Below, piece by piece: positions 1,346-18,224 of a stretch of 64,000 bases of DNA. Origin of the DNA: Bacteroidaceae bacterium (GTDB lineage: Bacteria; Bacteroidota; Bacteroidia; Bacteroidales; Bacteroidaceae); assembly GCA_017522915.1 (NCBI GenBank), contig JAFWXX010000035.1, forward strand, positions 1-64,000, written 5' to 3'. Within the stretch, counting starts at the first letter, position 1, and every line of letters begins with the position of its first letter. A program made the translations under genes and the position numbers. The notes under the pieces were generated by a model, which did not search any database, was not told where the DNA came from, and saw only the letters and a list, made by a program, of their open reading frames with translations.

Positions 1346-1557
1346 TATTTCTGCACATTTTAGCGTAAAATAAACTTGTTTATCCATGTTTTTGCTTGTT
1401 TTTAAGTAGAGACTGCATGCTATAAATCAACAGTTCACATTTCTTCAAAAGCATCTGCTTGTCTAAACAGAACTGCGTTTAAAAATCCTTGTCAATATCA
1501 GAACCGACTCTATTGTTCATTAAAAAACAGTTCTCTCACTGCTTGTACGCGCCATCA

Positions 1558-1649
1558 CAGCCCTATTTGCAGGTTATGACCGACTTCGTTTTGTGGCGTA
1601 CGGACATCACCGCAAAAGGAACGTACAAATATAATGACAAGCTATTCTT
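1558..1649 (+). repeat. Direct repeat, left copy (porP segment)
   Basis: This 92-bp segment is 95 percent identical to 18961-19052 and in direct orientation. The two copies bracket the ten-gene operon at 2094-18224. Recombination between them would remove about 17.4 kb. Confidence 0.85.
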
Positions 1650-1719
1650 GGAGGCCTACTCTACTATCTGGTTGGAGTTCTATATGACATACAGCTATGT
1701 AGATGACGAGGAATATTAA
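1558..1719 (+). pseudogene. Chimeric remnant: porP fragment joined to a fragment of the gene at 141
   Basis: Bases 1558-1649 match 18961-19052 inside the intact porP/sprF gene at 87 of 92 positions, in the same orientation and reading frame (peptide PYLQVMTDFV...). From 1650 to about 1715 the sequence instead matches 290-355 of the exported-protein gene at roughly 58 of 66 positions (WLEFYMTYSYVDD). The frame stays open across the join and ends at TAA 1717-1719. The frame can only be extended back to a TTG at 1489, with no credible start region. I read it as a non-functional product of recombination; the junction falls where both parents share a TT-GGAG-like short match. Confidence 0.8.
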
Positions 1720-2093: not shown

Positions 2094-2276
2094 ATGAATG
2101 CAGCAATAACACTCATAATCATAGGGCTACTGGTTTCCTATATTCTGCCTGGCTTCCTGCCAAAAGGCAAAAACAAAAAGGCCAGCAAAAAGAACGCTTT
2201 GATATGCAAAGCAATAGGATGGCTTCTTATATTCCTTGGAGCATATAATGCAATAAGCATACTTTTGGAGTTTTAA
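2094..2276 (+). CDS. Small two-helix membrane protein, first gene of the operon
   Basis: A 60-residue protein with two hydrophobic helices (about 4-22 and 40-58) joined by a strongly basic loop (KGKNKKASKK), so the loop is probably cytoplasmic and both termini periplasmic. No family is recognised. It lies 41 nt after the predicted -7 element and 18 nt before the vWA lipoprotein, so it is translated from the start of the operon mRNA. It may be a small membrane subunit or a leader-type regulator of the complex. The clean start, the promoter fit and the clear transmembrane pattern support a real gene despite its size. Confidence 0.7.
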   Translation: MNAAITLIIIGLLVSYILPGFLPKGKNKKASKKNALICKAIGWLLIFLGAYNAISILLEF

Positions 2277-2294
2277 AAAATAAATACATAGACA

Positions 2295-3614
2295 ATGAAA
2301 AGAATAACAAAATCTCTCAGCACATTATGCGCTGTTATTATGATCGTGACCGCCACGGTATCCTGTACATACAGAGTTGAAGATTTGGTACGGATAGGTG
2401 AGTTCCACAAGGCTTCATTGAATGATTCCGGCAACAAAGCAATGAACGAAGAAACAAAGGTGGATTTGTATATCGATTATTCCGATTGTATGATTACAGC
2501 CACAAAGTCACCCTATTACACTAGTGTACAGCCTGCAATCATCGCATGCAATCCCAATTACTACTCAATCAAGGGAAATGAAATAAAGTTCGAGACAAAC
2601 GACAAGATGAAAATCCATCAGCTCCTGAACACAATAAGGAATGTTGATTACTCCAACATCAAGGGTGCTGTTGACAGCATAATCGCCAACAAGAACCAGG
2701 CTATCATCATCACCGATGGAGAATTCTACCAGAAAGGAGTTGGCGCAAACCTCAACAACCCTTATCTTGCCGATGAATTCAAGGAATGGCTCACTATGGG
2801 ATACGACATCTATATATACAGCGAGCCTTATACCTTCCAGGGATATACAAAGAACAGATATTATATGCTGTTTACCGACAATAAGCTGGAGGACAACATA
2901 CAGAAGATATTCTCACGCAACGCTCCCAAACAGGACGATGTCAAGATGGTGCACCTTTATAGCGGAACCCCGACTGTAAAGTTCGCAAACGGCAAAACAG
3001 AATTCAACGAACAGATGTTGGTTACAGAAGATGCAGAGGTCAATGCAAGCCTCTCATACGAGTGCCATACCGTTGATGCATATTGGGATGATATGCATAA
3101 TTACATATTGAATGCAACTGATGACGAAGGAAACCTAATAAAGGGAGGAGAGCCTGTCATTAAGGGCATATCCATAAACACCACCGACGAAGATGCATAC
3201 AAGCCGGCAGAACTAGAACTGAAGTGCTATGAGATTAGCGACATGTATATGGCAAGCGATTCTTCTTTCGGCAAAGTAACATTGCCTGCAGCTATAAAGG
3301 ACCTCTTTGTCCTTGATGAAGAGGAATGGAAGAATGGGGAGATTGTCATAAAACTGCATCCCGACTTTGACGGCTCATGCCTTACAGGAGGAGAAGGAAA
3401 CCTCATCAGAGTTGACATTTGTGTAAAGAAATCGGAAGAGAACTTTACAAACAAGCCGGAAATTGGCGGCAACTTCAAGTTCGATTCTCCTTGGGGATTC
3501 AACACATCTGTATATGAGAGTCTCAAACAGGTTCTTCTAGACCCAGCTATCAGCCCGGAGAACAGCGGCAGCCCAATCATTTACACAATCTACCTGTCAA
3601 CATACACAATCTAA
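2295..3614 (+). CDS. von Willebrand factor A-like lipoprotein
   Basis: A 439-residue protein with a lipoprotein signal (TATVSC, Cys24). The region after residue 55 resembles a vWA fold: a beta strand ending in D61-Y-S-D-C65, similar to a MIDAS DxSxS motif with Cys in the last position; then a strand IIITDGE with D141; and a further strand YDIYIYSE. The remainder (about 230-439) is beta-rich. vWA domains usually bind a partner through a metal ion, so it may recognise a ligand or another subunit at the membrane surface. It is the second gene of the operon, 18 nt after the small membrane protein. The vWA call rests on pattern only; the rest of the protein is unassigned. Confidence 0.7.
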   Translation: MKRITKSLSTLCAVIMIVTATVSCTYRVEDLVRIGEFHKASLNDSGNKAMNEETKVDLYIDYSDCMITATKSPYYTSVQPAIIACNPNYYSIKGNEIKFETNDKMKIHQLLNTIRNVDYSNIKGAVDSIIANKNQAIIITDGEFYQKGVGANLNNPYLADEFKEWLTMGYDIYIYSEPYTFQGYTKNRYYMLFTDNKLEDNIQKIFSRNAPKQDDVKMVHLYSGTPTVKFANGKTEFNEQMLVTEDAEVNASLSYECHTVDAYWDDMHNYILNATDDEGNLIKGGEPVIKGISINTTDEDAYKPAELELKCYEISDMYMASDSSFGKVTLPAAIKDLFVLDEEEWKNGEIVIKLHPDFDGSCLTGGEGNLIRVDICVKKSEENFTNKPEIGGNFKFDSPWGFNTSVYESLKQVLLDPAISPENSGSPIIYTIYLSTYTI

Positions 3615-3650
3615 CAGACAATTCAATAATTAAATCAAATATCAAAGACT

Positions 3651-4034
3651 ATGGTTTCAAAAATCACAACAGCAGTCCAGCTGCATCAGGCCGAAATGGC
3701 CACTTATATGACAGATGCTATTATTGGCATAGCATTCATTGTATTGATCATTATCATCGCAAACATGATTTCATGGCAGCCTGGTGCTCATGACGGTTCT
3801 CCAGCAAAGCGCAGAGTATGGTTCTGGATCATGGCAGTCACATGCCTTTTCACAAGCCTGGGAGTGAATTATTTCTCATGGCTACGCCACATCAGCAAGG
3901 CACAGTTCGTTACTGAATATATTATACACATGATTGCAGCAGCTGTTGTTGGCAGTTTGATATATGCCGGCATTACTTACATTATTTGCAAAATGCAGAA
4001 GAAGGATACAAAGCTTGCATCCATATTCAAATAA
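3651..4034 (+). CDS. Three-helix inner-membrane protein
   Basis: A 127-residue protein with three predicted transmembrane helices (about 22-45, 58-80 and 90-115) and short polar ends. No family is recognised. It sits between the vWA lipoprotein and the tubulin-like gene, 36 nt and 30 nt away. It could anchor the cytoplasmic tubulin-like or actin-like subunits at the inner membrane, but that is inference from position alone. Confidence 0.7.
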   Translation: MVSKITTAVQLHQAEMATYMTDAIIGIAFIVLIIIIANMISWQPGAHDGSPAKRRVWFWIMAVTCLFTSLGVNYFSWLRHISKAQFVTEYIIHMIAAAVVGSLIYAGITYIICKMQKKDTKLASIFK

Positions 4035-4064
4035 TGCTGCACAAACTATAAAATATCCAAAGTT

Positions 4065-5639
4065 ATGAATACATACAATGTCATAGCAATAGGAGGCACT
4101 GGAATGAGGTGTGCAGAAAGCCTTGTACAATTGTGCGCTATGGGAATGTTTGACAACACCGAAATAAATCTGCTGGCTCTTGATACGGATTTCGAGAACG
4201 GCAATTTCAAGAGACTCAAGACTCTTGTCGATAACTACAACCGTATTACCGCCGACCGTGACGGAGTAGCATCGGACACACTGTTCTCGGCAAAGATAAA
4301 CTACTTCACATTCTCCCCTACATACACATCAGGCACATGCTTCGATATCATATCACGTTACAGCGAAGCACAAACCAACACACATGATGATGATGGGGTA
4401 AAATGGCAGGACAGCGACCTGGTTGACCTGTTCCTTACACCTGAAATGAGGAAAATGGACCTTCAGCACGGTTATAGAGCACAGACACAAATGGGCTCAA
4501 TGCTGATGTATCATGCAATAAAAGAAGAGGCATTGAACAACAAGCAGAGGGGTTCGGATCTAGTGCGTTACGTCGAGCAGCTGATGTCGAATCCAGGCAG
4601 CATAGTATTCATGTTCGGCTCAGTTTTTGGTGGAACCGGTGCATCATCGATACCCATCCTTCCCCATGCGTTGCAAGAGGCTGCAAGAATCATATCAAAG
4701 GACGGACAAGGTGATCTTCTGAGCAAAAACTATTTCGGAACTGTAATGCTGACCAACTACTTCAGCTTTGATTCACCAAATACTAAGGATGAGGTGTATG
4801 CGACTTCGGACAAGTTTGCATTGAACTCTCAAGCTGCATTATCATTCTATGACGAGGATGAAACAGTAAAGTCAACATACAAACGTCTTTATCTGATAGG
4901 ACGAGAAAGGCCACGCAACGTATCACGCAAAGAAACAGAGAGCGTTACAGGTGGTGCTGCTCAACGCAATCCGGAAGATTACATTGAACTGGCAGCAGCT
5001 TCGGCCGCCTATGACTTCTATCATTGGGTTCAAGAACACTTGGCTAAAACAATAAGCAACAAAAATCTGGGAGCGGCAACAGCAGAAATATATTATCGCA
5101 CAATTTCATCGGACGAGGAGGACTGTCTTTCATTTGAATCGTTCTTCGGAGCAGACAAGGATAAGTTCGCACAAAAATGCGGAATCATGATGGCTTCTGC
5201 TTTCCTGTTCGGACCACAGGACTTTGCGACTAACCGCAGGAATCACTCGTCATTCAGTGCTTTGACCGAAGCCGATGTCAAGAATATAAGAGACTTCTTC
5301 CGCCATTTCTATGACCTGGAAGGAATTGATGAGCAGGAACCCGGCAGCGGTTGGATCAGACAGATGCAGGAATCTGCCATAGAGCAGGGTTATCAGGGTT
5401 TCCTGTTTAACCAGGCTGCATACAATACAACCCCGAATTCTGCAAGAAAGTTCAAATACAACGAGCAGATGTATCCTGAAAAATCGGCATTCAAGTTCGA
5501 CACATCACTATTAAGCAATGCGTACGATACATTCAAGAAGGAGTTCGGAGACATGGTATTCAGCGACAGCGACAAGAGCGCAGTCTCTGCTCTGCTCAAA
5601 CGTACGTATGATACTTTTTCAAAACTTTATGGTTTTTAA
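4065..5639 (+). CDS. Tubulin/FtsZ-superfamily protein
   Basis: A 524-residue protein. The N-terminus (strand VIAIGGTGMR, glycines 10, 11 and 13) resembles the first nucleotide-binding loop of tubulin and FtsZ. The LLALDTD segment follows, as in that fold. The signature loop appears as FGGTGA at 188-193, matching GGGTGSG of FtsZ with a reduced glycine run. Length and motif spacing fit the tubulin-like family found in bacterial conflict-type operons rather than cell-division FtsZ. The C-terminal half has no obvious match to the catalytic T7 loop of FtsZ, so polymer-stimulated GTP hydrolysis is uncertain. It lies 18 nt before the actin-fold gene. It probably binds GTP and assembles in response to a signal. 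Confidence 0.8.
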   Translation: MNTYNVIAIGGTGMRCAESLVQLCAMGMFDNTEINLLALDTDFENGNFKRLKTLVDNYNRITADRDGVASDTLFSAKINYFTFSPTYTSGTCFDIISRYSEAQTNTHDDDGVKWQDSDLVDLFLTPEMRKMDLQHGYRAQTQMGSMLMYHAIKEEALNNKQRGSDLVRYVEQLMSNPGSIVFMFGSVFGGTGASSIPILPHALQEAARIISKDGQGDLLSKNYFGTVMLTNYFSFDSPNTKDEVYATSDKFALNSQAALSFYDEDETVKSTYKRLYLIGRERPRNVSRKETESVTGGAAQRNPEDYIELAAASAAYDFYHWVQEHLAKTISNKNLGAATAEIYYRTISSDEEDCLSFESFFGADKDKFAQKCGIMMASAFLFGPQDFATNRRNHSSFSALTEADVKNIRDFFRHFYDLEGIDEQEPGSGWIRQMQESAIEQGYQGFLFNQAAYNTTPNSARKFKYNEQMYPEKSAFKFDTSLLSNAYDTFKKEFGDMVFSDSDKSAVSALLKRTYDTFSKLYGF

Positions 5640-5657
5640 CAATAGACTACTTGACTC

Positions 5658-8600
5658 ATGGCTATAACAAAAAATCTATTGCCTAAGTGTGTCAAAGGGC
5701 ATGAAACACAGCAAGCAAAGCCCAACACTTGGGAAAGCATGAAACAACCGAAGCAATTCATTGACAGCATAGACACTACTGGCGGCGAGTTGAATGATGC
5801 AGCAAAGTTCAACCTGCTTGTATCCAGCGTACCTTCACCGTGGGCACGTGTACATTTGACACAACATGCCCTTATACAGTGTGCCGACAAGACAGACAAC
5901 GGAATTTTGTCGAAGTTCTACTCATTCCTTTATAGCGAGTGGAGAGGACTTATTGCAGCATATGTCCTCTATCCTGAATATTTTGAACTGACCAATCCTA
6001 TTGAGCTTGTTTCAAAGGACATCAGTACAAAATCGGGGAAATTCGATATTCTCAGCACATACTCAGAGATGCTTTTTGAGAATGCACCTCTATGGAAATA
6101 CGAAAAGGGTAAGCTCGAACATCCTAAAATACAGTTGCTATATTACCATAATGGAGATCAGCGTTTTGTTGTTGGCGGTACATCACCTTTCAGTATACTC
6201 TTCACAGGCATGAATTACAGAATGCCTGAAGACGAGCAAAGAATCTATTGGATTGAGGACGGCAAGTTCCAGGACCCGGCAGATGTAAAGTATGAAACAT
6301 ACTACAAAGAAGGAGAAACCAAATACAATGACAAGCACTTCAATAACTTAAAGAAACTGTACTCGTTCCTTAACGGAGTTCAGAAGAACTGCTCGGCATA
6401 CATTTCAACACTTAAAAGCATATGGGAAAGTATTCACGATAAAGAAGAAATCACCACCGACAACAGATATGACATTGTGGAGAACGTGCTCTCTACGGGT
6501 ATATCTACGTGGATGGACGAAATAAAGAAAGTGCTTGGCAATGATGCTGAAAAATCAAAGAACATACCAGTAAACCACAAACGGCCGGAAGGTCCTCTCG
6601 GTGAGCTGTTAAATATAAAATCTGTCTATTACTGGCGTAACAATGCATTCTATACCCGTCCATTCGACGTTAACGAAAAGTTGGCAGACAACCATGAAGA
6701 GAAAGTTGAGGATGTAGAGAATCTGTTTATCAACAGCGACTATCTTGCAATATGGCGGGATTGTGCAATTGGTGTGACAGACCAGTTTGGCAACTCAAAC
6801 ACACAAAAAGAGCACGACTACAGTTTATCCCCAGTACATTTTATTAAGACTGAGGAGAACGGAAAGACATGGTTCCTGGCCGTTCCGCTAAGCGAATATG
6901 CACTTAAGAGCGTATTCAAGCAGGAATTTGTCCCAATCATTGAAGATTCAAACGAGAATGTAAAAATCATTGCAGAAAAGAACGGCAAGAAAGTTGACGT
7001 TTATCTGAAAGCACGTATTGACGCCGAAGGAGATTGGGTCAATATCAGAAACCGCTCTTTCAATGTGGAGACCCCAAATCAAGGCAAGAAAGTATTTGCA
7101 TGGCCGAACTTCTGCTCTTCGAAATGGCAGAAGTACTATTACTACAGCGAGTTTCCGATGAATGCCACAGGTGATGTCCAGATGGTTCCGGTCTTTGAAG
7201 ATATGGCCGATATTGAAAATCCACAAAGTACAGAACACTGGGATAAGGATGCATTCCTCAGAATGATTAAGTATCCGGCAAATGCGACTACAGATGCACA
7301 TGCATACGAAATCATCAGAACAAACAAGCCTTTACGCCGTATCAAGATACGCAAACGCATCGGAAACGGTATCTATGATTTGGGGTGGCTAGTCCTGAGA
7401 CAAGTCAATTACAAAGTCGGTCCAAACCAGCCACAAGGAATGCAGATGATTCCAGATTCGGATACACTTTCACCGACAACCGTAGGCTTCGACTTCGGAA
7501 GCACTAACTCATGTGCATATTATTGCGGACAAGGCACTAATGATATCCGCCCTATACCATTCTCAAACAGAAGACTCGCTATTATAGGTTTCGACAACAA
7601 GGAGATGAATACAGCAGAACCTAACGAATTGTTATTCATTTCCAACGAAAAGCCTATTAACGATAATGGACAGATAAAGTCATGGCTTCATGAGCATGAC
7701 CAGATGTTCATCGACCCGTCAAAAATGGGAGAAGAGCTAGTTGGTGGCGTTCCTGTCAACGAGACAAATATCAATGTAAAGAGTATGAACCGTTACGACA
7801 TTACTACAAATGCCGGAAAGCTTCATTACAACATGAAATGGCTTGTTGACAACGATGGCTCACGCCGTAAGAAAGCATTCATGAAGATGGTATGGATACA
7901 GATTTGTGCCGACCTCTTTGCTGAGAACATGTATCCTAGAACCTTGAACTGGTCATACCCAAGTGCTATGGGTTCAAAGGATATGAGTGCTCTTGAAGAC
8001 ATCTTTGCCGATATTCCTTCTCCATCACCAAATCACAAGATAGAAGAAAAGAATTCATATACAGAGGCGGAAGCAGTATGTTCATACTTTTTGGACAAAA
8101 ACATATCACTGGAAGAATATAATCTTTTTGTAGGTATGGACATCGGCGGTTCTACATCTGACATTCTGGTACTCGGCAAAGAGGCTTCTGCAACACAGCA
8201 GGCGGCTGTTAAGCCTGAAGTACAGGCCGTGGAAAACAAACCGGCTCCAGCTTCGGTTGATTATGATGAACTGGGCAGAAAGGAACTATGCGACCTTGTG
8301 CGCCAACGCGGACTCGCAGGAAAGGTGGACCTGGACGAACTGAGCAGAGGCGAAATTGCAGAGTTCCTAAAGGCAAACGAAGCTGGTGCAGTTGATTATG
8401 ACGAACTGAGCAGAAAGGAACTGTGTGAACTTGTACGCCAGCGCGGACTCGCAGGCAAGGTTGACCTGGACGAATTGAGCAGAGGTGAAATTGTCGAGTT
8501 CCTAAGAGCGAATGAAGCGGGTGCCGTTGATTATGATGAGCTGAGCAGAAAGGAACTCTGTGACCTTGCAAGCCAACGTGGTGTTGCAAACCAAGCAAAA

Positions 8601-9821
8601 CTGGACGATATGGGACGGGCAGAAATTGTCGAGTTGCTTAAGAACTCTTCAGCAACGATTGCCGCACCGACACATGAGGCTCCCAGAACGACAACATTGA
8701 GTGCATCCAACAATAGCACGGAGAGAGGAGGTACCGACCGCAGACTCTTTACACAATGCTCCGTAAGAATGGCAGCAGGAGTATTCTTTGATGCAATCAT
8801 CGGTTCCAAGAAGTTCCGTGATTGCATAAGGAATTTCCATGCATCAAAGGAGACACGCATTAAAGTCGAAGGCATTGACAGCATTGATGTTGATCCATTA
8901 AGAGCACCTTACTACCTTAACAACATATTTGACCAGCTACGCGGTGACAATGAGTTCAAGAAGTTCTACGGATACCTAAAGAATGATGTTCCGTTCGTAT
9001 TCTCGCTCCCGGCATATATTCTGGGTGCGCTTATGACCTACTCAGGAATGCTGGTACGCAATGCAATCATAACCCACAAGCTGAACAAGATTGAAGATAT
9101 TCATCTCCGTTACTTCGGAAAGGGAGGACGATTGTTCGAATGGCTGTTCTTTACATTCAAAAAGGATGAGGTTGATGCATACTTGAATGCTTGTTTTGAG
9201 GTAGGACTCAAGAGTACAGAGATAGACAAGGCATTCGGACGCTCTGAAAACAAGCCGATACGTTGTACATTCGACAATTGCAATGACACACACTATGGCG
9301 ACAGCGAGAACTCCGAAAACAAGTCAGAAGTTGCTAGAGGCCTTGTATCTCGACACGAAATCAAGGGCATAGACGCCAATAGGCGCAATGTCTATGGCAA
9401 GCGAGGCCAGAACCAGGCAGGGAAGTACGACGCAAGAAAGCAGGAGGTTATTGGAGAGGTCGGAATCTCAAGGAATGGAATCAAGCTCAACGAACTGGAC
9501 CTTGTTGATGACAATTTCTACGAGCACGAAGGAAGTATTTCAATGCCACGCAACTTTGAAAACTTTACTGAATTCATGGAAACATTCATCCTTTTCGTAG
9601 GACAAGCGACGAACGTATATCCAAAGACAAACAATCTGAAGAACAGAATTAAGGATGTAAGCAATGTCCGCAATTTCATTGTTAAGGATACTGAATTCCG
9701 TAAATACACGGAAAATATCCGTTCCGGCAATGAGGATTCGTATCGCATGCCTGTATTTATTGCAACTGCGCTCTACTATCTTGAGGAAGTTCTTCTAAAG
9801 GAAGTATTCTCAAACAACTAG
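5658..9821 (+). CDS. Giant actin/Hsp70-fold ATPase-like protein with internal helical repeats
   Basis: A 1387-residue protein. Residues 1-600 are unassigned. An actin/Hsp70-type ATPase core starts with the phosphate-1 motif FDFGSTN at 611-617. The phosphate-2 motif MDIGGST follows at 827-833, with a possible adenosine motif in the PAYILGALMTYSG segment near 1118. Directly after phosphate-2 sits an insertion of three tandem 45-residue units (867-1001). Each has the pattern YDELSRKELCxLxxQRGL, similar to SAP/HeH-type helix-extended-loop-helix modules. The protein is far larger than DnaK (about 640 residues), so it is not a general chaperone. It is encoded 18 nt after the tubulin-like gene and 19 nt before the coiled-coil gene. 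It is likely a central ATP-dependent switch or scaffold. Confidence 0.8.
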   Translation: MAITKNLLPKCVKGHETQQAKPNTWESMKQPKQFIDSIDTTGGELNDAAKFNLLVSSVPSPWARVHLTQHALIQCADKTDNGILSKFYSFLYSEWRGLIAAYVLYPEYFELTNPIELVSKDISTKSGKFDILSTYSEMLFENAPLWKYEKGKLEHPKIQLLYYHNGDQRFVVGGTSPFSILFTGMNYRMPEDEQRIYWIEDGKFQDPADVKYETYYKEGETKYNDKHFNNLKKLYSFLNGVQKNCSAYISTLKSIWESIHDKEEITTDNRYDIVENVLSTGISTWMDEIKKVLGNDAEKSKNIPVNHKRPEGPLGELLNIKSVYYWRNNAFYTRPFDVNEKLADNHEEKVEDVENLFINSDYLAIWRDCAIGVTDQFGNSNTQKEHDYSLSPVHFIKTEENGKTWFLAVPLSEYALKSVFKQEFVPIIEDSNENVKIIAEKNGKKVDVYLKARIDAEGDWVNIRNRSFNVETPNQGKKVFAWPNFCSSKWQKYYYYSEFPMNATGDVQMVPVFEDMADIENPQSTEHWDKDAFLRMIKYPANATTDAHAYEIIRTNKPLRRIKIRKRIGNGIYDLGWLVLRQVNYKVGPNQPQGMQMIPDSDTLSPTTVGFDFGSTNSCAYYCGQGTNDIRPIPFSNRRLAIIGFDNKEMNTAEPNELLFISNEKPINDNGQIKSWLHEHDQMFIDPSKMGEELVGGVPVNETNINVKSMNRYDITTNAGKLHYNMKWLVDNDGSRRKKAFMKMVWIQICADLFAENMYPRTLNWSYPSAMGSKDMSALEDIFADIPSPSPNHKIEEKNSYTEAEAVCSYFLDKNISLEEYNLFVGMDIGGSTSDILVLGKEASATQQAAVKPEVQAVENKPAPASVDYDELGRKELCDLVRQRGLAGKVDLDELSRGEIAEFLKANEAGAVDYDELSRKELCELVRQRGLAGKVDLDELSRGEIVEFLRANEAGAVDYDELSRKELCDLASQRGVANQAKLDDMGRAEIVELLKNSSATIAAPTHEAPRTTTLSASNNSTERGGTDRRLFTQCSVRMAAGVFFDAIIGSKKFRDCIRNFHASKETRIKVEGIDSIDVDPLRAPYYLNNIFDQLRGDNEFKKFYGYLKNDVPFVFSLPAYILGALMTYSGMLVRNAIITHKLNKIEDIHLRYFGKGGRLFEWLFFTFKKDEVDAYLNACFEVGLKSTEIDKAFGRSENKPIRCTFDNCNDTHYGDSENSENKSEVARGLVSRHEIKGIDANRRNVYGKRGQNQAGKYDARKQEVIGEVGISRNGIKLNELDLVDDNFYEHEGSISMPRNFENFTEFMETFILFVGQATNVYPKTNNLKNRIKDVSNVRNFIVKDTEFRKYTENIRSGNEDSYRMPVFIATALYYLEEVLLKEVFSNN
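8256..8660 (+). repeat. Three in-frame 135-bp tandem repeats
   Basis: Units start at 8256, 8391 and 8526, exactly 135 bp (45 codons) apart. Units 1 and 2 differ at only 4 of 45 residues; unit 3 is more diverged, mainly in its second half. The period is a multiple of three, so copy number can change without breaking the frame. Confidence 0.9.
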
Positions 9822-9840
9822 TATCAATGATTGATATACT

Positions 9841-11877
9841 ATGGCAAAATACATTCAGCTATATCTGGACACCGACTTCATTCTCCCGATTGGAGTCGGT
9901 GAATCAGGAGACTTTCAGAAATATATAGACCAACAGGCATCAAGACGTCTCTGGCTATACTTCAACAAGGCGGCCAACGGCATGTATGAATCGAATGAGG
10001 CAAACAAGGCTAATTTCGAAGCCGGACGCGATGGATTCTACGGAGATTTCTGGAATAATCTTGAGAAAGGTAATAAGGTTATAGGAACATCGTACGATTA
10101 CATAGAACTGCTTGACCTTTCACGCATCATCACCAAGATACGTGATTGGTCCGAAGTTACATTATTTACCAAATCACCCGAATTTGTTCTTAACTTCTCT
10201 ACCGTCATTCCATTGAAAGCCAGGCGGACTTTTATTGACTATATAGAAAGTAAATTAGGTAAAGTACGCAGCTATAGTATTGAAATGAACGACCTGCTTT
10301 CTTCTAAGATAATGCACGACTACCGTAGTCTGGCCCCATCCTTTGGAGACCAACTGCTTATAGTGCAGTCGGCAGGACGTGATATATTATTGTCCGTACA
10401 GACATGGTGTGGAGATATGTTTATGCAAGGGGATGACTGCCATAAACTTGAGAAGAAAGGCAGCGAACACCTTAAGTACGAGCTGGCAAAGATGGTAGTC
10501 ACCCACTTCGAGAAAACCTACAACATGTTGGCACCAAAGGATCTGGAGGAAGAATATTCGTACCAGATGCAATTTGTCGAAAACTGGATGAAAGAAAGAC
10601 GCGGAGATGAAAACTTCTGGATTGACAACTTCCACTATAAAGGTAGCCCGGATAAGATTTACCCACCTTTTGAGGTCGATGGCAAGCAACTTGATCTAAA
10701 AGAACGGGACTCTATAAGTACAACGATCAGACTGATAAACAAGTTCTATGGAGAAAATATCAGGAATCACCACCTGCATACAATACTTCTAGGTGACGTA
10801 TTCAAGGAAGAGGTATTTTTGAGGGCGTGTATCGAGGAGACTTCAAGTGACGGCAAATATACCTACTTTAATGACAATGCAACACAAGAAGCCTTAGGAA
10901 GATACCATTCCAGGTATTCTACTCTAGAAGAAGATACAAAGGACCTTGAACGCAAGTATAATGACAAATCCAACGAACGCGAGAGGATAAGAACATACGT
11001 CAGGAACGCAGAACTTCTAGGTTCTCTTCTGGCAGAGCTTAAAGAAAGCATATCCAGCCTTAAAAACGCTACAGAAAGTGCGACAAACCGCAGCTCCGAC
11101 CTCAAGAAGTCATGGGAAGCCTTTATGAGGCGAAGCGACTTTAAACAAGCAGAAGAAAAAGTTGATGAAATATCTAAGGCCTGTACCCAATCGGTTGGCC
11201 TTGAGAAATACAAGGAGAGTGTCAGAAAAGTAGAAAGGCAAAATTCGCTGCTTGAAGAAGTACATGAACTAAAGGAGGTGGCAAAGACAGTTAGCGACAT
11301 CAGGTCCTGCGAGAATGAGCTCAATGAACTGATTGCACATGCAGAAGGATTGGAGAGACTCCCTAAGGAACTTCAAGAGAAGACACAAAAGTACAAGGAT
11401 TGTTATGGCAGGTATCAGGAGACAAGAAGAAAGTTTGAAAAAGAACCGACACTGACTATTCGCAGAAACCTTATCAAAGAAATGGAAGAGCTTACAATGG
11501 AAGAGCTTCCTGTCATTGATATCAGCCCTATACACGGCAGCATTGTCGTAAAAGCCGAGAACACCGGAGGCTTCTTGGGTTTCGGTTCACGCAAAATAAT
11601 CTCATTACGGCTTAACATACATGAGCCACTGCCTTGTAAAGGAGTTTTGGTAATATCACCGAAGCCAATATCATCTATACCTCCAGGCAGAACAGGAGTT
11701 TACTGCATTGATGTCGAAAAGGGCGAGGAAGGTGAAGTGATAAACATTACGGAAGAATCCACTGCATTGAACCTGGGGAAAGCACCTAATTCACTGTTTG
11801 TGAAGTTCTGGCCTCACGAGAACGAGAAAGTACCTATTAACCTTTTTGAGATAAAAGGAGGAACAATAACAATATAA
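9841..11877 (+). CDS. Coiled-coil protein with N-terminal globular and C-terminal beta-rich domains
   Basis: A 678-residue soluble protein. Residues 1-340 form a globular region with many aromatic residues and no recognised motif. Residues about 355-560 are highly charged (Glu/Lys/Arg) with heptad-like spacing, indicating a long coiled coil. Residues 565-678 look beta-rich and contain a glycine-rich GGFLGFGSR turn. No family is recognised. It is placed between the actin-fold gene and the zinc-ribbon GTPase (19 and 10 nt gaps). A coiled-coil linker or effector-recruiting scaffold within the complex is plausible but unproven. Confidence 0.7.
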   Translation: MAKYIQLYLDTDFILPIGVGESGDFQKYIDQQASRRLWLYFNKAANGMYESNEANKANFEAGRDGFYGDFWNNLEKGNKVIGTSYDYIELLDLSRIITKIRDWSEVTLFTKSPEFVLNFSTVIPLKARRTFIDYIESKLGKVRSYSIEMNDLLSSKIMHDYRSLAPSFGDQLLIVQSAGRDILLSVQTWCGDMFMQGDDCHKLEKKGSEHLKYELAKMVVTHFEKTYNMLAPKDLEEEYSYQMQFVENWMKERRGDENFWIDNFHYKGSPDKIYPPFEVDGKQLDLKERDSISTTIRLINKFYGENIRNHHLHTILLGDVFKEEVFLRACIEETSSDGKYTYFNDNATQEALGRYHSRYSTLEEDTKDLERKYNDKSNERERIRTYVRNAELLGSLLAELKESISSLKNATESATNRSSDLKKSWEAFMRRSDFKQAEEKVDEISKACTQSVGLEKYKESVRKVERQNSLLEEVHELKEVAKTVSDIRSCENELNELIAHAEGLERLPKELQEKTQKYKDCYGRYQETRRKFEKEPTLTIRRNLIKEMEELTMEELPVIDISPIHGSIVVKAENTGGFLGFGSRKIISLRLNIHEPLPCKGVLVISPKPISSIPPGRTGVYCIDVEKGEEGEVINITEESTALNLGKAPNSLFVKFWPHENEKVPINLFEIKGGTITI

Positions 11878-11887
11878 AACAGGAAAA

Positions 11888-13126
11888 ATGGGAATATCAA
11901 TATTATGTCCATATTGCTTTGAATCATTCGACAACACCGATGTCATGGTTCAATGCGAGAACTATTCAACACGCACAATAGACGGGAAACCCACTGAAAC
12001 ATGCGAGCGTGAAGAGAACGAAAAGTTCAACAGGCACTGGGATGAAAAAGTCATGTCAAAGCATGTTTTTTCTCCTTCCATCGGATTCTTTGAAAGACTC
12101 TTAGGGTATAAGCCAAAAGCCGCAAAATGCGACAAATGCGGTGCTAGTTCAACAAGATTCGTTTGTCCGCATTGCAATAACTGGCTCCCTACTGAGATGA
12201 TAGAGAAAGGCTCTGAAATCATATCAATCATTGGAGGACCGGCAAGCGGTAAGTCAAATTATATCGTTGCACTCATACACCAGCTTCAGAAGTATGGATA
12301 TAAACTGCAGCTTTCGCAGATTCTGCCACAGTTGGTCGGAAGGAATAAGAAGGAGTACACAAGAGCACTTTACGAGAAAGGCAAAGAGTCCATCTTCAAG
12401 GACCATACACCTGTTTCAAAGACTGCAAAGACATCACACCCAATTCCTTGGATATTCCGTTTAGAGAGCCATGCTACCAAGAAAGCTGTTTATCTGGTAT
12501 TCTATGATACGGCTGGCGAAAGTTTCAAAGATCCGGAGGAGATTAAACGCAATGCAAAATATCTGGAGAAATCCAAAGCCGTTATCGTTGTGCTGGATAC
12601 ATTGTCCATACCGTACGTACAGAACATCCTTGAATCAAAGAATATTGTAAATCAGGATATTGCAACCCCATTTATGGAGACAATGGATGCACTTAACAAC
12701 TTTGCTACGGAGAATCCTCATCTTTACAAGACACCTTTTGCCTTTGTCATGAGCAAGTTCGATTCCATAATCTCAAATAAAGAGGATTTGGAATTCGACA
12801 TTGAGCCTTTCAAGACAAACAGTTCATTCATCACTACCGGAAAATTCTCGTTGAGACAGATAGATGAATCAAGCGAGATGATAAAGAGCTATATGGAGAG
12901 CCATTGGGAAAGCGACAGTGAGGCATACGGTCAAATGGCTTATGACATTTTCAACAAATGGGGTGACAACGCTCGCTTTTTCGGAGTATCGGCATTGGGT
13001 GCTATGACAAACTCAGACTTGAAGATAAATATCCCAGACAACCAGGATATAAAGCCATTCCGCGTTATGGACCCGCTAATATGGGTTCTTCACAAGCTCG
13101 GAGGCTACGGAATACCTGTTGAATAA
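11888..13126 (+). CDS. Zinc-ribbon GTPase, soluble (DO-GTPase-like)
   Basis: A 412-residue protein. The N-terminus carries cysteine pairs at 7/10, 81/84 and 93/96, suggesting one or two zinc ribbons. A P-loop GTPase domain follows: Walker A GGPASGKS at 116-123, switch-II-like DTAGE at 207-211, strand VIVVLD at 232-237, and a base-recognition SKFD at 289-292 in place of NKxD. This arrangement matches GTPases paired with GAP1-like proteins in predicted NTP-dependent conflict systems, as I remember the family. No transmembrane helix is seen, so it is cytosolic. The GAP1-like gene follows 15 nt later and a membrane GTPase of similar layout is two genes on, so the two GTPases may work together. 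Confidence 0.85.
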   Translation: MGISILCPYCFESFDNTDVMVQCENYSTRTIDGKPTETCEREENEKFNRHWDEKVMSKHVFSPSIGFFERLLGYKPKAAKCDKCGASSTRFVCPHCNNWLPTEMIEKGSEIISIIGGPASGKSNYIVALIHQLQKYGYKLQLSQILPQLVGRNKKEYTRALYEKGKESIFKDHTPVSKTAKTSHPIPWIFRLESHATKKAVYLVFYDTAGESFKDPEEIKRNAKYLEKSKAVIVVLDTLSIPYVQNILESKNIVNQDIATPFMETMDALNNFATENPHLYKTPFAFVMSKFDSIISNKEDLEFDIEPFKTNSSFITTGKFSLRQIDESSEMIKSYMESHWESDSEAYGQMAYDIFNKWGDNARFFGVSALGAMTNSDLKINIPDNQDIKPFRVMDPLIWVLHKLGGYGIPVE

Positions 13127-13141
13127 CAAAAAAATGCATAT

Positions 13142-15622
13142 ATGAAGTATTATCACATAATCTATAACTCTTCTGAGAGATATATGGATGGCGGAGTCGG
13201 CTTCGGTATCCGCACTGCAACAGAAGGCACACCCGAAAACCTGCTTAAGGCCATAAAGGAGATAACATTCTTCACTGATGACTGGGAAGATTATGAGACA
13301 AAGCCCACACCATCACAATTGAAGGATGACCCTGCTAAAATAGAACAAGTACCTATGAACTATGCCGTCACTCAACTGACAGACGAGGAGGGAAAGAGGT
13401 ACTTTATTGTTGCCAGAAGAGCATATGTCGGCTTTGACTACGGATTCTACAAGAACGGCATGCCGACACGCCCCGGAAACTATGTAATAGACTATTATGC
13501 ATTTGATTCTGTTCCGTCAAGAGACGTGTACGAGATTCTGTATGAGAACGCTCTCCCAGGATCGAACCATTTCATACCGGAATCGGTACGTCCTACAACC
13601 GATAATGAAGAGATGATTGCAATCTCTGTAGGTGCGCAAGGCCCATTGGCAGTAGAGGAAAAGCCTTTCAGTGCCAACACACAGGATGAGCTGACAAAGG
13701 ATGCAGTAAAACTATTTTTCTACTATTTGCAGGCTAAAAGCGCAAACCAGAAACTGGTGGTCAAGGTTAGCCGTAAAAACTCAAACAGGCTGCTTGCCGA
13801 TTTCTACAGGATGTTAGGGCCCGTGCTTTCTTCTGAAATACGCACCTATGTTAACCTACGCAGCCAAGGTACAAACGACAACTTTGATATCTATTTCATC
13901 CACGAGGACTATCCGCATCAGATATATCCAGGCCTGTATAACTATATAGAAATGGATTCTGCAGAAATACCGGACACATTCGAAGCAAAGACTTTTGCGA
14001 ATGACATAATGAACCGTGTATGCAGTTCATATGAAGAGAACAAGGAAGATGCGGACGACCTGTTGAAATGGGTTACTATGCCCGAACATGACTTGGTGAA
14101 AAACATGTCAAAAGAGACCAACGACGCATTCTTCAGCTATTGTGTACAGCCAGGTAATTTCACATATGCCTCTCTAAAGGAGAGCAATGGCATACTGAAC
14201 CGTGAACTGCTGGATACTCTATGCTCTTACACAAGTAAAAGCACCGCAAATGCTATGCGCTTTAACGAAGTTGTTACTGAGGTTATGAGCGATATTGCCC
14301 CAGATTCTGTCATCAGCCTTATCAAAGACTACAACGAGCTTGAGAATATCGGTTTCTCTTTAGATACAGTCACCTTAAGCATAAAGAAAAAGGTTTGTTC
14401 AGTCTTTTTATCCGACATATCTATTTTCCGTAAATTACTGGACGAGGTACATCCCGAGAACATCTCCAAGTTCTTCTGCAAGGAGTTGTTCGAAGAAAAG
14501 CACGATTACCTCGATTCACCATTCCTGGACAAGTACATGACAAAGTTGTACAACTTGTTCTATACCGAAGAGGAACTCCAGAAAAAAGGACAATGCTTGT
14601 GGCGTTTTATGAGACGTGATATCGACAAAGGCATCATGTTCGACTTGATAGATAACATTTATCAGGAACAGGAGCAGAAGATTAAATTCCTCATTAACAT
14701 ACTTCATAAGGAGCTCAAACCTTTCAATGCCGTATGGGAATATCTGGAGCACTATTTGAATAACGGTGCCTACAACACCGATTTCATATCGGAATTCCGC
14801 GAAAAGACAACTGATGAATCATATGCTCCAATTTTCTACTATAGCCTTAAAAAGAACAGAAATGGACTTGATTCGCTGGAAAAGATAACACAAACAAGCG
14901 AGTTGCTGGCACACAATAAGGCCCTTAAGACACTTGTTGAAAAAGGCTTCTCATCAGATGACATATACAGCGCATACTACAAGTTTATTGATGCACAATG
15001 TGATGAGAAACCGGATAAATGTCTTGAACATATCAAGAACAACATATTCTGTTTCCTGAATGTCAATGACAACAAATGGAATGTACTTAAAGAGTACATT
15101 GAGCTTGTAATAAACATAAATGAAGGAAAAGAGATCGGCAAGCTAAGCAAGGATAGACAAGTTGACATATTCAACAAGATAGCAGAACATAAAAACACGA
15201 CGGTGTTCAATACCATGCTGAATGATTTCATATCATTAGTAAGGAACAACCGTATTCATGTAAAGGCTTTAGCTGCAATCTATAAGAAGATGAACCCGCA
15301 ACATGATTGCATAACCACATTGGCCAATCTCGATTCACACAAAGACTGGCTGGAGATGGCCGAAGCTGTCATTATAGACAATTTCGAAATGGGATTCGTC
15401 GATGCAACACAGTTGCTGGAAGAGTTCGGTTACCCGAACCAGCTTCAGGAACGTTTCCTGAGCGACCATTACAAGAAAGAGTACAAGCGCTATAGGTTAA
15501 AACACAAGATAAAAAGCTTCTTTAAGCCAATTATATCGCTTTTTAAACGAAAGGACAAGGAAAAAGGAAGTTCTAAAGAGAACAAAACCGAGAGGAAGTC
15601 AAAAATAAATAAGAAAGCATAA
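13142..15622 (+). CDS. GTPase-associated (GAP1-like) protein
   Basis: An 826-residue protein. The N-terminus (IIYNSSERYMDGGVGFGIR, residues 6-24) fits my recollection of the GAP1 N-terminal domain, whose hallmark is a short strand followed by a GxGFxxRxxT/S loop. The central and C-terminal parts (about 300-780) are helix-rich and repetitive in pattern, like a solenoid, and the last 60 residues are strongly basic. It sits between two GTPase genes (15 nt after one, 8 nt before the other), which strongly supports a role as partner or regulator of them. Enzymatic activity is not evident; family assignment is from motif memory. Confidence 0.75.
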   Translation: MKYYHIIYNSSERYMDGGVGFGIRTATEGTPENLLKAIKEITFFTDDWEDYETKPTPSQLKDDPAKIEQVPMNYAVTQLTDEEGKRYFIVARRAYVGFDYGFYKNGMPTRPGNYVIDYYAFDSVPSRDVYEILYENALPGSNHFIPESVRPTTDNEEMIAISVGAQGPLAVEEKPFSANTQDELTKDAVKLFFYYLQAKSANQKLVVKVSRKNSNRLLADFYRMLGPVLSSEIRTYVNLRSQGTNDNFDIYFIHEDYPHQIYPGLYNYIEMDSAEIPDTFEAKTFANDIMNRVCSSYEENKEDADDLLKWVTMPEHDLVKNMSKETNDAFFSYCVQPGNFTYASLKESNGILNRELLDTLCSYTSKSTANAMRFNEVVTEVMSDIAPDSVISLIKDYNELENIGFSLDTVTLSIKKKVCSVFLSDISIFRKLLDEVHPENISKFFCKELFEEKHDYLDSPFLDKYMTKLYNLFYTEEELQKKGQCLWRFMRRDIDKGIMFDLIDNIYQEQEQKIKFLINILHKELKPFNAVWEYLEHYLNNGAYNTDFISEFREKTTDESYAPIFYYSLKKNRNGLDSLEKITQTSELLAHNKALKTLVEKGFSSDDIYSAYYKFIDAQCDEKPDKCLEHIKNNIFCFLNVNDNKWNVLKEYIELVININEGKEIGKLSKDRQVDIFNKIAEHKNTTVFNTMLNDFISLVRNNRIHVKALAAIYKKMNPQHDCITTLANLDSHKDWLEMAEAVIIDNFEMGFVDATQLLEEFGYPNQLQERFLSDHYKKEYKRYRLKHKIKSFFKPIISLFKRKDKEKGSSKENKTERKSKINKKA

Positions 15623-15630
15623 TAACGATT

Positions 15631-17280
15631 ATGGGCACCAATTTTATATTGTTAACGTCTGAGCACAACTATCAGGATTCACCACACCACATTGTTTTCT
15701 GGTCTTTCATATTGCTGACCATTGCAAGTTTCATATATTTTCAGCTAAAGCCATGGAGCAAGAATATGTGGAAGAATATCAGAGGTGAATTCGACAAGAA
15801 CGGCATGCGTCGCCAGTTCGTATATAACAAGCAACCTTATATAATGGTGATGTATGTTGCTCTGACTATTGTCCTGTCGGGGTGTATTGCAGCACTGGCA
15901 TTATTTGCTTTAGGCGGTACAGGATTCCTGCTACTATGGTTATTGAAAGTAATTGTCTGGTGCATTATCATTATCGGATGGATATGTGCTATCGTTGGTG
16001 CATTAGGATTATTTGCTGGAGGAGCCGGAATTATTCCTCTCATAATCGGAATCATAATTCTTGTATTCGAAGAAGAAATGGTGAATTTCGGCGAACTCTG
16101 TGTGAATACAGGACTAGAATTCTACAATACACTGAATATTTGGGAGTATTGCTTATATCTATTTGATAATTATGGCATTATTTTTGGTATAACAGCCTTG
16201 GCACCAATCATTATAGGCATTGTAATAATATTGGGAGCTACGCTATGCTCGCTAATTTTCTGGATTGTAGAGACTTTGATGACAAGAAGATACAATATAA
16301 AACACCCTTGCCCGTTCTGCCATAACCCGTCTGAACCGGCCATATATCTTTCGGACAATCAGGAGCTGCCGGTAAAATTGAGACCTGGAGTATATGGATT
16401 GTTCCACATTACACACCCTGTAACAGGCGAGAAGATGCCGACAATGCTTCTGAACGGTAGAGATAACCTCCCACGCCGGTGCCCGCACTGCGGTCACACC
16501 ATAAGCTACAAGACCGGTGTAGAAAAGCATCTTGCCTTTGTAGGACTTCCGGAATCGGGAAAGACATGTCTTACATATCGATTTGTCGGCAACCTGATGA
16601 GAAATTATCCAGACATCAGGTTTACCGATGAGGTCAACAATGAAGCACAAAGGATAATAACCGACATTAAAGATGGCAAGGAACAAGAACTTGCATCAAA
16701 GACCAGTGTTGCAGATATGCGTAGAAGCCTCCAGATTCTCGCTCAAGGAAACGGTTCGATGCCATACCATATCTTCATAAACGATGTGGGAGGTGAGTTG
16801 TTTACAACATCAGGGATTGAAGCCACCTATGTACAGTTCTTCAAGGATGTTGAATCCGTTTCTATCATAATCGACCCGTTTACAATGGACTTCAGCGAAT
16901 ATGAACTAGGCAATGATTTTGCAACATGGTACAATAAGAATGTTGCAAGCCAGGATGCTGGAGCAAGAAAAGAGAAAGTATCAAATGTCATAAATACCAT
17001 AAAGACGATGTCGGACCAGTTCATGCACAAGACAAAGAAAATGCACATGAACATCATTCTTGTTAAGATTGATTCCGGTTATGTACCGAATGACATCGTA
17101 GGAGACGAAGCTAGAATAAAGGATTTTGTAACCAACCAGATGAACCTTATTGCAGAGGTGGCTGATTTGGAAAGCACCTACGCATCTCTTCATTTCTATG
17201 CAGTGTCTGCACTGAAGAATATAGGAATCGAAGAGCTTATATCAGGCATATCTGAGGAATTAAAAATCAAACTATCGTAA
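15631..17280 (+). CDS. Polytopic membrane zinc-ribbon GTPase (DO-GTPase-like)
   Basis: A 549-residue protein. Residues about 20-215 contain four or five transmembrane helices. A zinc ribbon follows, with cysteines 227/230 and 284/287. The P-loop GLPESGKT is at 305-312, a DVGGE switch-II-like motif at 385-389, and a KID base-recognition-like segment (IILVKID) near 470. This places the GTPase domain in the cytoplasm at the membrane. It resembles the soluble GTPase two genes upstream in having a zinc ribbon directly before the P-loop, so the two probably form a pair. The stop codon overlaps the TIR gene start by one base (TAATG), suggesting translational coupling. Confidence 0.85.
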   Translation: MGTNFILLTSEHNYQDSPHHIVFWSFILLTIASFIYFQLKPWSKNMWKNIRGEFDKNGMRRQFVYNKQPYIMVMYVALTIVLSGCIAALALFALGGTGFLLLWLLKVIVWCIIIIGWICAIVGALGLFAGGAGIIPLIIGIIILVFEEEMVNFGELCVNTGLEFYNTLNIWEYCLYLFDNYGIIFGITALAPIIIGIVIILGATLCSLIFWIVETLMTRRYNIKHPCPFCHNPSEPAIYLSDNQELPVKLRPGVYGLFHITHPVTGEKMPTMLLNGRDNLPRRCPHCGHTISYKTGVEKHLAFVGLPESGKTCLTYRFVGNLMRNYPDIRFTDEVNNEAQRIITDIKDGKEQELASKTSVADMRRSLQILAQGNGSMPYHIFINDVGGELFTTSGIEATYVQFFKDVESVSIIIDPFTMDFSEYELGNDFATWYNKNVASQDAGARKEKVSNVINTIKTMSDQFMHKTKKMHMNIILVKIDSGYVPNDIVGDEARIKDFVTNQMNLIAEVADLESTYASLHFYAVSALKNIGIEELISGISEELKIKLS

Positions 17281-18224
17281 TGAAAGATTTTTCTGACAAA
17301 ATATTTTTATGCTATGCCTGGGAAGACACAGCAGAGGTAAAACGTATTGTAACAGATTGGGAGAATGAGTTAGATGCCCAAATGGCATCACCAGACGCTT
17401 TTACCATAAAAAACAAGTTCGAAGCAGATGAAAAAACCTTAAGGCAAATAGAAGATGCCAGTATCTTCATTCTGTTTATCAGTAATGCATCGAAAAAGAC
17501 CGACTACGTTAAGGATTTCATTGTAAGAGCCCAGAATATAAACAAGAATATCCTGCCGGTAGAAATTGGAAAGAATTATTTTCCATTAGGCAATTCCATG
17601 CCGGCCGAGTTCAGTTTCAGAACAAAGCCTTACTCTTATAATGACAAGGATTCAAGAGCAAAGCTGCTGGCCCAATTAAAGGCGACGCTAGGCATTAATA
17701 TTGAGAATGGCGATGAATTCGGTTCTTTGGTTCATATTGTCACAGATATGAATGCCATCGTTCTACGTTATGGACAAAGGCTTGAGACAGCAAAAGTGAA
17801 TGAAGACAACAAAATCAGGCTTAAAAAAGGAATGCACTTGCTTGATTTTGTATCTGAAGATGATCTCGACATAAGATGTAGCATGCCATGCGAAGTAAAA
17901 GACAACGAAGGAGAACTGTTTCTGAATGTTTCACTGGCCGAGCTATACAGAAAGAAGGAAGAAGAGAGAAAAGTTGCAGAGATGAAGGCCAAGGTAAGGA
18001 TGCAACAAGCAGAAGAGCAGTACAGAAAGGAACTGTTGGAGCAACAAAGGGCTAAAGAAGAAGAAGAAGAAAGAAGGATTGCAAGAGTTCAAAAAGAACA
18101 GCAAGAAAAATCAGGAATGTCGGGCTGTGCAATATTCTTTATTATAATTTTAGGTATTGCATTGCCTTTTACACTTATCTTCACAATACCCTATCTTATC
18201 TACAAATATAGCAATAAAAAATGA
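17280..18224 (+). CDS. TIR-domain protein with C-terminal membrane anchor
   Basis: A 314-residue protein. The N-terminus begins like a TIR domain (strand KIFLCYAWED at 7-16; ASIFILFIS at 60-68; ILPVEI at 91-96). Where NAD-cleaving TIR domains usually carry Glu in a pattern like WVxxEIxxA, this protein has YVKDFIVRA with Phe80 and a neighbouring Asp79, so catalysis is doubtful. Residues about 215-275 are a charged coiled coil, and 283-308 form one or two transmembrane helices ending in a basic tail. It is the last gene of the operon and is coupled to the membrane GTPase by a one-base overlap. It is most likely the effector or an adaptor arm. Confidence 0.8.
   Translation: MKDFSDKIFLCYAWEDTAEVKRIVTDWENELDAQMASPDAFTIKNKFEADEKTLRQIEDASIFILFISNASKKTDYVKDFIVRAQNINKNILPVEIGKNYFPLGNSMPAEFSFRTKPYSYNDKDSRAKLLAQLKATLGINIENGDEFGSLVHIVTDMNAIVLRYGQRLETAKVNEDNKIRLKKGMHLLDFVSEDDLDIRCSMPCEVKDNEGELFLNVSLAELYRKKEEERKVAEMKAKVRMQQAEEQYRKELLEQQRAKEEEEERRIARVQKEQQEKSGMSGCAIFFIIILGIALPFTLIFTIPYLIYKYSNKK

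Follow-up and report, generated by a model that had tools for sequence, protein, structure and literature searches.

An operon joining tubulin-like and Hsp70-fold proteins to double-GTPases in a Bacteroidaceae bacterium: a putative GAP1-N2 conflict system

What might be the use of an operon in which a tubulin-like protein and a giant Hsp70-fold protein are encoded together with two GTPases, an exported lipoprotein and a TIR-like domain? The question is raised by a Bacteroidaceae bacterium (assembly GCA_017522915.1), of which the first 64,000 nucleotides (nt) of contig JAFWXX010000035.1 were analysed (positions 1 to 64,000, henceforth the window). Between positions 2094 and 18224, ten open reading frames (ORFs, here g1 to g10) lie on the + strand, all in the same orientation, as the initial annotation of the sequence had it. 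The distances from g1 to g10 are 18, 36, 30, 18, 19, 10, 15 and 8 nt, plus one overlap of 1 nt, which is close to the 8–37 nt and one overlap given there. On the basis of sequence comparisons, the operon would be a membrane-anchored, nucleotide-gated double-GTPase conflict system of the GAP1-N2 kind, most likely directed against phages, a reading to which I assign a probability of about one half. Systems of this kind are already known on paper (Kaur et al. 2020, PMC7159879); what appears to be new is a Bacteroidota form uniting in one operon the tubulin and Hsp70-fold proteins that the paper treats separately, together with a core quartet of its genes that is met elsewhere without the GTPases.

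Protein families of the operon

In the accessible part of its text, to which all statements on this source are limited, the paper by Kaur and co-workers defines the DO-GTPases, GAP1-N1 and GAP1-N2 as well as a tubulin and an Hsp70 theme, and predicts an antiviral role for the GTPase-centric GAP1-N2 conflict systems. The DO-GTPases of these systems often come as two paralogues, one of them with N-terminal transmembrane (TM) helices, and the systems are described with a Walker B glutamate, zinc ribbons, GAP1-M and GAP1-C, an FNIII-repeat protein, and GrpE in the Hsp70 theme. The three themes are non-overlapping, and the tubulin theme is confined to firmicutes and actinobacteria. A second paper (PMC11237479) names DO-GTPase once in its accessible part.

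The window operon shares with these systems the paired DO-GTPases, one of which has N-terminal membrane segments and a zinc ribbon, and the Walker B glutamate, found in DTAGE and DVGGE, respectively. The soluble double-GTPase g7 (11888..13126, + strand), with N-terminal zinc ribbons and the motifs GGPASGKS, DTAGE and SKFD, matches DO-GTPase1 above the Pfam cutoff (E = 1.3e-9). The membrane double-GTPase g9 (15631..17280, + strand), with N-terminal TM segments seen by eye, a zinc ribbon, GLPESGKT and DVGGE, matches DO-GTPase2 below the cutoff (3.1e-4), while its homologues in loci L070 and L071 do so above it (2.4e-9) and just below it (6.2e-6), and CxxC pairs are present in both g7 and g9. The two homologues (L070:8271-10700 and L071:6447-8876) are TM-GTPases of 809 amino acids (aa) with a lipoprotein-like N-terminal extension that g9 does not have. 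The position of a GAP1-N2-like gene directly after a gene for a DO-GTPase is a further shared trait: for g8 (13142..15622, + strand, 826 aa), GAP1-N2 is the best match, below the cutoff (0.0036), and two of three scanned homologues gave 5.4e-4 and 1.4e-4, the third, in L069, giving none. GAP1-M and GAP1-C have no match in g8 up to an E of 1, nor in the three homologues up to 0.05, in a search with HMMER, which may miss them. The GAP1 query found its own genome only among 295 genomes of the class, and among 61 relatives it found, beyond its own genome, one short match with internal stops. The two GTPases, the GAP1-like partner and the link to proposed conflict systems dependent on nucleoside triphosphates (NTPs), all claimed in the initial annotation, are thus borne out, the last by the two DO-GTPases and GAP1-N2 in the company of tubulin, Hsp70 and vWA proteins.

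Taken alone, the tubulin-like GTPase g4 (4065..5639, + strand, 524 aa) reaches just E = 0.057 against PF00091. At E <= 0.01, PF00091 is found in 16/20 members of its family (best 2.9e-8), which upholds the tubulin fold first proposed, and Tubulin_2 in 14/20; it is by its alignment with the PF00091-matching members that g4 is placed in the tubulin theme. With the tubulin/FtsZ superfamily (PF00091, PF13809) the family shares an N-terminal GGTG loop, an FGGTG box (FGGTGAS in g4) and a conserved N and E at T7-like spacing (the invariant N302 and E308), while its profile gave only E = 0.12, local to the GGTG box, against 10 Bacteroidia FtsZ proteins.

The following gene, g5 (5658..9821, + strand), encodes a predicted giant ATPase of 1387 aa with the fold of the Hsp70/actin superfamily, as had been suggested from the letters alone; the comparison was made with the homologue in L026. 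The residues D612, K727, E803 and D828, at catalytic positions, are invariant in 18/18, and the VIA list of the giant spans residues 571–1003. Whether Hsp70 or actin/MreB is its closest kin is left undecided, because the best rows of the two are tied within one Z unit, and the giant differs from Hsp70 and MreB by insertions and by an N-terminal region of ~570 residues (about 570–600 aa in g5). Within g5, a 45-aa unit is repeated in tandem about three times (8256..8643, + strand) and looks by eye like small helical SAP/HeH-like units. GrpE was not matched among the nine operon proteins scanned with Pfam. In L058 (11639-21569), other ORFs, among them one of 560 aa, seem to interrupt the giant close to its start, so that a short giant-like ORF is followed later by the remainder.

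A further Hsp70-like domain probably begins g6 (9841..11877, + strand, 678 aa), with weak support from the window protein itself, and is followed by a coiled coil and a C-terminal region. The positional counterpart of g6 in L061 has, in a predicted structure searched with Foldseek, an Hsp70/MreB-like domain and FNIII-like parts (FNIII proteins 6tpw, 9.1e-10, and 3t1w, 2.2e-9, the predicted local distance difference test score being low in that region), a trait of GAP1-N2 systems, and no Pfam match to FNIII. In the window, by contrast, the coiled coil lies at the place of FNIII. A hidden Markov model (HMM) of the FNIII-type g6 misses the window protein (E = 41); hhalign connects the two N-terminal sets of g6 with E values of 0.0013 and 7.4e-4, the window set reaching no better than 0.013 against unrelated families, and this link leans on L057_3, without which the values become 0.043 and 0.088. 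By eye, the catalytic motifs of an Hsp70-like domain are not visible in g6, and the g6 type seems to differ from Hsp70 and MreB in being devoid of phosphate motifs. The coiled coil noticed at first in g6 therefore stands, but not as a description of the whole protein.

The exported lipoprotein g2 (2295..3614, + strand, 439 aa) has a lipobox-like start ending in VSC, and a D-x-S motif together with profile comparison suggests that it is vWA-like, in agreement with its first annotation. The lipoproteins form two families, A and B, linked by hhalign only (E = 5.6e-8, probability 94.7; 0.019 or worse for the same query against unrelated families), and D-x-S-x-S is present in the consensus of A3. 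A plain HMM of family B misses family A (best 0.41 in L027, 19 for the window protein), g2 has no Pfam match, and a search of the PDB with the vWA alignment retrieved no vWA protein. Membrane association of the system, which had likewise been foreseen, is seen also in the small membrane protein g3 (3651..4034, + strand, 127 aa; homologue L028_6, 7.1e-12). The first gene, g1 (2094..2276, + strand, 60 aa), has two hydrophobic segments by eye and phmmer homologues in L053_10 (2.1e-18) and L061_9 (3.2e-7).

The last gene, g10 (17280..18224, + strand), has a C-terminal TM segment by eye and matches TIR_2 in Pfam (4.1e-7). These traits could speak for abortive infection, in which the GTPase/tubulin apparatus would gate an NAD+-destroying TIR enzyme (NADase). 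In the TIR_2 alignment, however, a glutamate occupies one column, which I take to be the catalytic position, in 21/21 distinct domains of relatives that reach it, whereas the window protein has F and that of L053 has C. For these counts, L102 and L119, being the same protein, were taken once, and L121 ends short of the column; the set is given with 20 loci for 50 rows, and the HMM used for the alignment was built from five of the 21 domains. In the position just before, both proteins have an acidic residue (D in g10, E in L053), which would allow a shifted active site, and TIR effectors are given for the related GAP1-N1 systems (PMC7159879). On the other side, the gene occurs in 2/4 GTPase-type operons, being missing in L061/L070 and not seen in L059/L071 before the contig ends ~530 bases past g9. 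A gated NADase is thus quite improbable, g10 as a standard TIR NADase is rejected, and a working TIR arm, as in the initial annotation, is not supported. Within the GAP1-N2 system that I favour, g10 is probably a membrane-tethered adaptor rather than an NADase, because the conserved glutamate is missing. The g10 query found only its own genome among the 61 relatives, and searches of PDB sequences with the two TIR proteins gave no TIR match.

The operon therefore departs from the published GAP1-N2 systems, so far as the accessible text describes them, in its Bacteroidota host, in combining tubulin and Hsp70 fold in a single operon, in the giant size of its Hsp70-fold protein, in the coiled coil instead of FNIII, and in a TIR-like protein without the glutamate.

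Recurrence of the operon and of its core

All ten genes recur in the same order, at a different site and with 44–76% identity, in an uncultured Prevotella metagenome-assembled genome (MAG; L053/L069). As L053 is the closest match with a name, the window genome may itself belong to Prevotella or to a near relative. Between the window and L053, differences are 1.5 to 4.8 times as frequent at third codon positions as at first or second ones in every gene (for the tubulin, 0.21, 0.14 and 0.61 at positions 1, 2 and 3), so that all ten genes, including the TIR gene, look to be under purifying selection. Together, the recurring order and the excess at third positions argue that the ten-gene unit is not due to chance. 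Two other Prevotella MAGs have g1–g9 (L061/L070, g3 by position and size only) and g2–g9 (L059/L071), and in L062 the contig stops within g6. The GTPase-type operon is thus known from the window genome plus three Prevotella MAGs, with no fewer than three distinct neighbourhoods, and the expectation that its genes would stay together in other genomes was confirmed. As judged by eye, the L053 operon lies between thi genes and genes like metH and metF, and its site is therefore different from that in the window. Cas9 (RuvC_III 3.1e-52, HNH_4 1.4e-14) and Cas1 (3.8e-27) come after the operon in L061/L070.

Four of the genes, those for the vWA lipoprotein, the small membrane protein, the tubulin and the giant, form a core quartet, relatives of which are found without the GTPases in further Bacteroidota, on plasmids of cyanobacteria and on viral contigs. 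Not counting the window, the giant is the next ORF of at least 100 aa after the tubulin, on the same strand, in 32/36 distinct loci; the exceptions are L030, L044, L058 and L065, and in L058 and L065 (Xanthocytophaga flavus YF14B1) the giant lies further on. Upstream of the tubulin, the closest two ORFs encode the membrane protein and the lipoprotein in 24/36 loci, and in L034 a single ORF of 514 aa matches both. The partner-family HMMs were seeded from the same loci, so that matches of seed members arise by construction and the counts rest on position. Rows dropped are L060 (regarded as identical to the L027 contig, with which it shares the length of 24,718 and the gene sizes), L073 (the contig of L053), L056 (tubulin frame lost) and L046 (8.9e-4, unconfirmed); the downstream count is without L031 and L063, where the contig ends after the tubulin, and the upstream count is without L030 and L055, where no sequence precedes it.

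The distribution of the tubulin is patchy: it occurs in 8/61 relatives (the match in G009 being weak and unconfirmed) and in 15/295 genomes of the class, its own genome included in both. Relatives are also found in five cyanobacterial plasmid records, and in the two of these that were opened a vWA-like gene (on the opposite strand in one) and a relative of the giant adjoin the tubulin, the small protein being there by position only. Four IMG/VR contigs have a tubulin relative, three of them with the quartet and one with tubulin and giant. TubZ and ParM are plasmid segregation systems that use tubulin- and actin-like proteins, and the plasmid and viral copies, like the repeats of the giant with their resemblance by eye to small helical DNA-binding units, would suit a module that maintains mobile elements by DNA segregation. 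The window copy, however, is chromosomal and lies beside genes for type IX secretion, the exported lipoprotein and the membrane protein accompany the tubulin in the 24 loci mentioned, and no integrase or replication domain was found by Pfam among the nine window proteins scanned, which makes segregation the least probable of the explanations, and a very improbable one.

In the tubulin tree, with its long branches and unsettled bootstrap, the five GTPase-type rows, of which L062 is labelled by g6 only, fall into two groups, one with the window and L053 and the other with L059, L061 and L062. The same fork (85/97, under the starred limit) also holds L028, L029 and L064, in which a GTPase of this sort was not seen, and the module was therefore gained twice or lost in between. 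In L028 (916-2166) and L064 (9395-10609), a membrane protein with a GYF-like N-terminus by eye follows the quartet and a g6-like gene; GYF proteins are given for planctomycete GAP1-N2 systems (PMC7159879). L027 has a protein kinase (5.2e-19).

The other large tubulin clade has different partners. A ZorA-like gene comes after the quartet in eight loci (L035, L036, L038, L039, L041, L042, L043 and L100), just downstream and in the same orientation, and a ZorB-like gene in seven, all but L041, where the sequence breaks off after ZorA; ZorA and ZorB belong to the Zorya anti-phage motor. PADLOC recognises ZorB in 7/7 (7.7e-11, 6.8e-13, 7.4e-8, 2.6e-18, 8.1e-15, 1.1e-16 and 1.9e-7) and ZorA in 6/8 loci with E values of 1e-3 or less. 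A C-terminal match to the phage-defence candidate PDC-S14 (1.6e-24) is found in the gene that follows ZorB in L100. The window operon differs in that none of its ten proteins matches ZorA or ZorB in PADLOC. The accessible part of a paper on Zorya (PMC11890865) contains none of the words tubulin, Hsp70 and GTPase, and that of a paper on phage defence (PMC12904381) has tubulin solely in the title of a reference. In the open-licence literature, I found no experiment on tubulin or Hsp70 partners of double-GTPases and no paper on the ten-gene system.

What the operon may do

If the operon is a conflict system, the lipoprotein and the small membrane proteins could report on the state of the envelope, while the tubulin and the Hsp70-fold giant would form or reshape an assembly that lies under the inner membrane and depends on NTPs. 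Its threshold might be set by the GTPase pair together with GAP1, and the assembly itself, with the TIR protein as a docking adaptor, would contain the infection or lead to arrest of the cell. In relatives, different output modules accompany this core, most notably a ZorAB-like motor driven by ions. I favour defence because of this ZorAB-like association, the patchy distribution, the different sites and one neighbouring locus of clustered regularly interspaced short palindromic repeats (CRISPR).

More tentatively, and at somewhat less than even odds, the quartet itself may be a widespread immune core, a cytoskeletal complex driven by NTPs beneath the membrane, with interchangeable output modules, and with similar reserve these outputs could be ZorAB-like rotary motors in many Bacteroidota, double-GTPases with GAP1 in Prevotella, and a kinase or GYF-like proteins elsewhere. 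If so, bacterial immunity employs a tubulin/Hsp70 apparatus with swappable outputs. Independently, the location of the core next to ZorAB-like genes leads one to expect a role against phages, and it makes this role testable in culturable Bacteroidota.

Several observations weigh against defence. The window operon is flanked by a type IX secretion operon and not by a defence island, the thi-, metF- and metH-like flanks in L053 are no defence genes by eye either, and a CRISPR neighbour is found at only 1/4 GTPase-type loci. No convincing PADLOC family matches any of the ten window proteins; the weak matches are g6 to LmuB (best 4.7e-5, within the coiled coil) and g9 to Csx3 (0.0076) and mad8 (0.02). 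In a search of 50,697 phage records the tubulin had no match. PADLOC ZorA is not matched in L035 and L038, its best match in L043 lies partly in the coiled-coil tail, and killing by TIR cannot be assumed. A scan of nine window proteins with NCBIfam gave nothing useful. I keep the probability at one half because the window has no convincing PADLOC match and no defence island.

Alternatively, the quartet could organise or repair the envelope in shape, transport or stress, as a housekeeping-like machine driven by the GTPases or by ZorAB-like motors, with no role in conflict. The vWA lipoprotein, the membrane proteins, the cytoskeletal folds and the ion-driven motor partners would all fit such a machine, as would the motor genes gldL and gldM of type IX secretion next to the window operon. 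However, a patchy distribution over different sites, with copies on plasmids and viral contigs, speaks against it, and so do the CRISPR neighbour in L061 and the neighbours in L053, unrelated by eye to type IX secretion; I therefore hold it to be unlikely, though the most serious rival of a GAP1-N2 conflict system.

The chromosomal site and minor features

From position 18313, the 3' side of the operon is occupied by genes for type IX secretion, namely porP, a gldK-like gene with an FGE domain, gldL, gldM and gldN. These genes as part of the unit were considered and rejected, as the L053 operon lies elsewhere. In 12 relatives of the same genus (L142-L153), no match to an operon gene was found upstream of porP; the gene at this place varies by eye in length and start, which marks a variable site, and the upstream stretch was shorter in L143 and L147 than in the others. 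L143 has at its left homologues of the window genes 141–833 and 854–1345, separated from porP by ~3.5 kb with other genes. In the window, a chimera or scar is located at 1557..1715 (+ strand), where 1557-1654 is 94% like porP 18960-19058 and 1645-1715 is 89% like 285-355, the latter piece deriving from the ORF 141–833. Variable content and chimera fit an exchangeable site upstream of porP.

Upstream of the quartet, L032 (1197-5135) and L033 (2092-6048) encode a further protein of ~1315 aa, which has an N-terminus that looks exported and, by eye, motifs like those of actin/Hsp70; that of L032 has no Pfam match. The promoter scan, limited to sigma-70 sites, gave 57 sites against 42.6 expected, and the terminator scan 17 against 13.9 expected. 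Terminator-like sites on the + strand within the operon have just 5–7 pairs each, whereas a terminator-like hairpin ahead of g1 (1744–1791, + strand) has 20 counted pairs.

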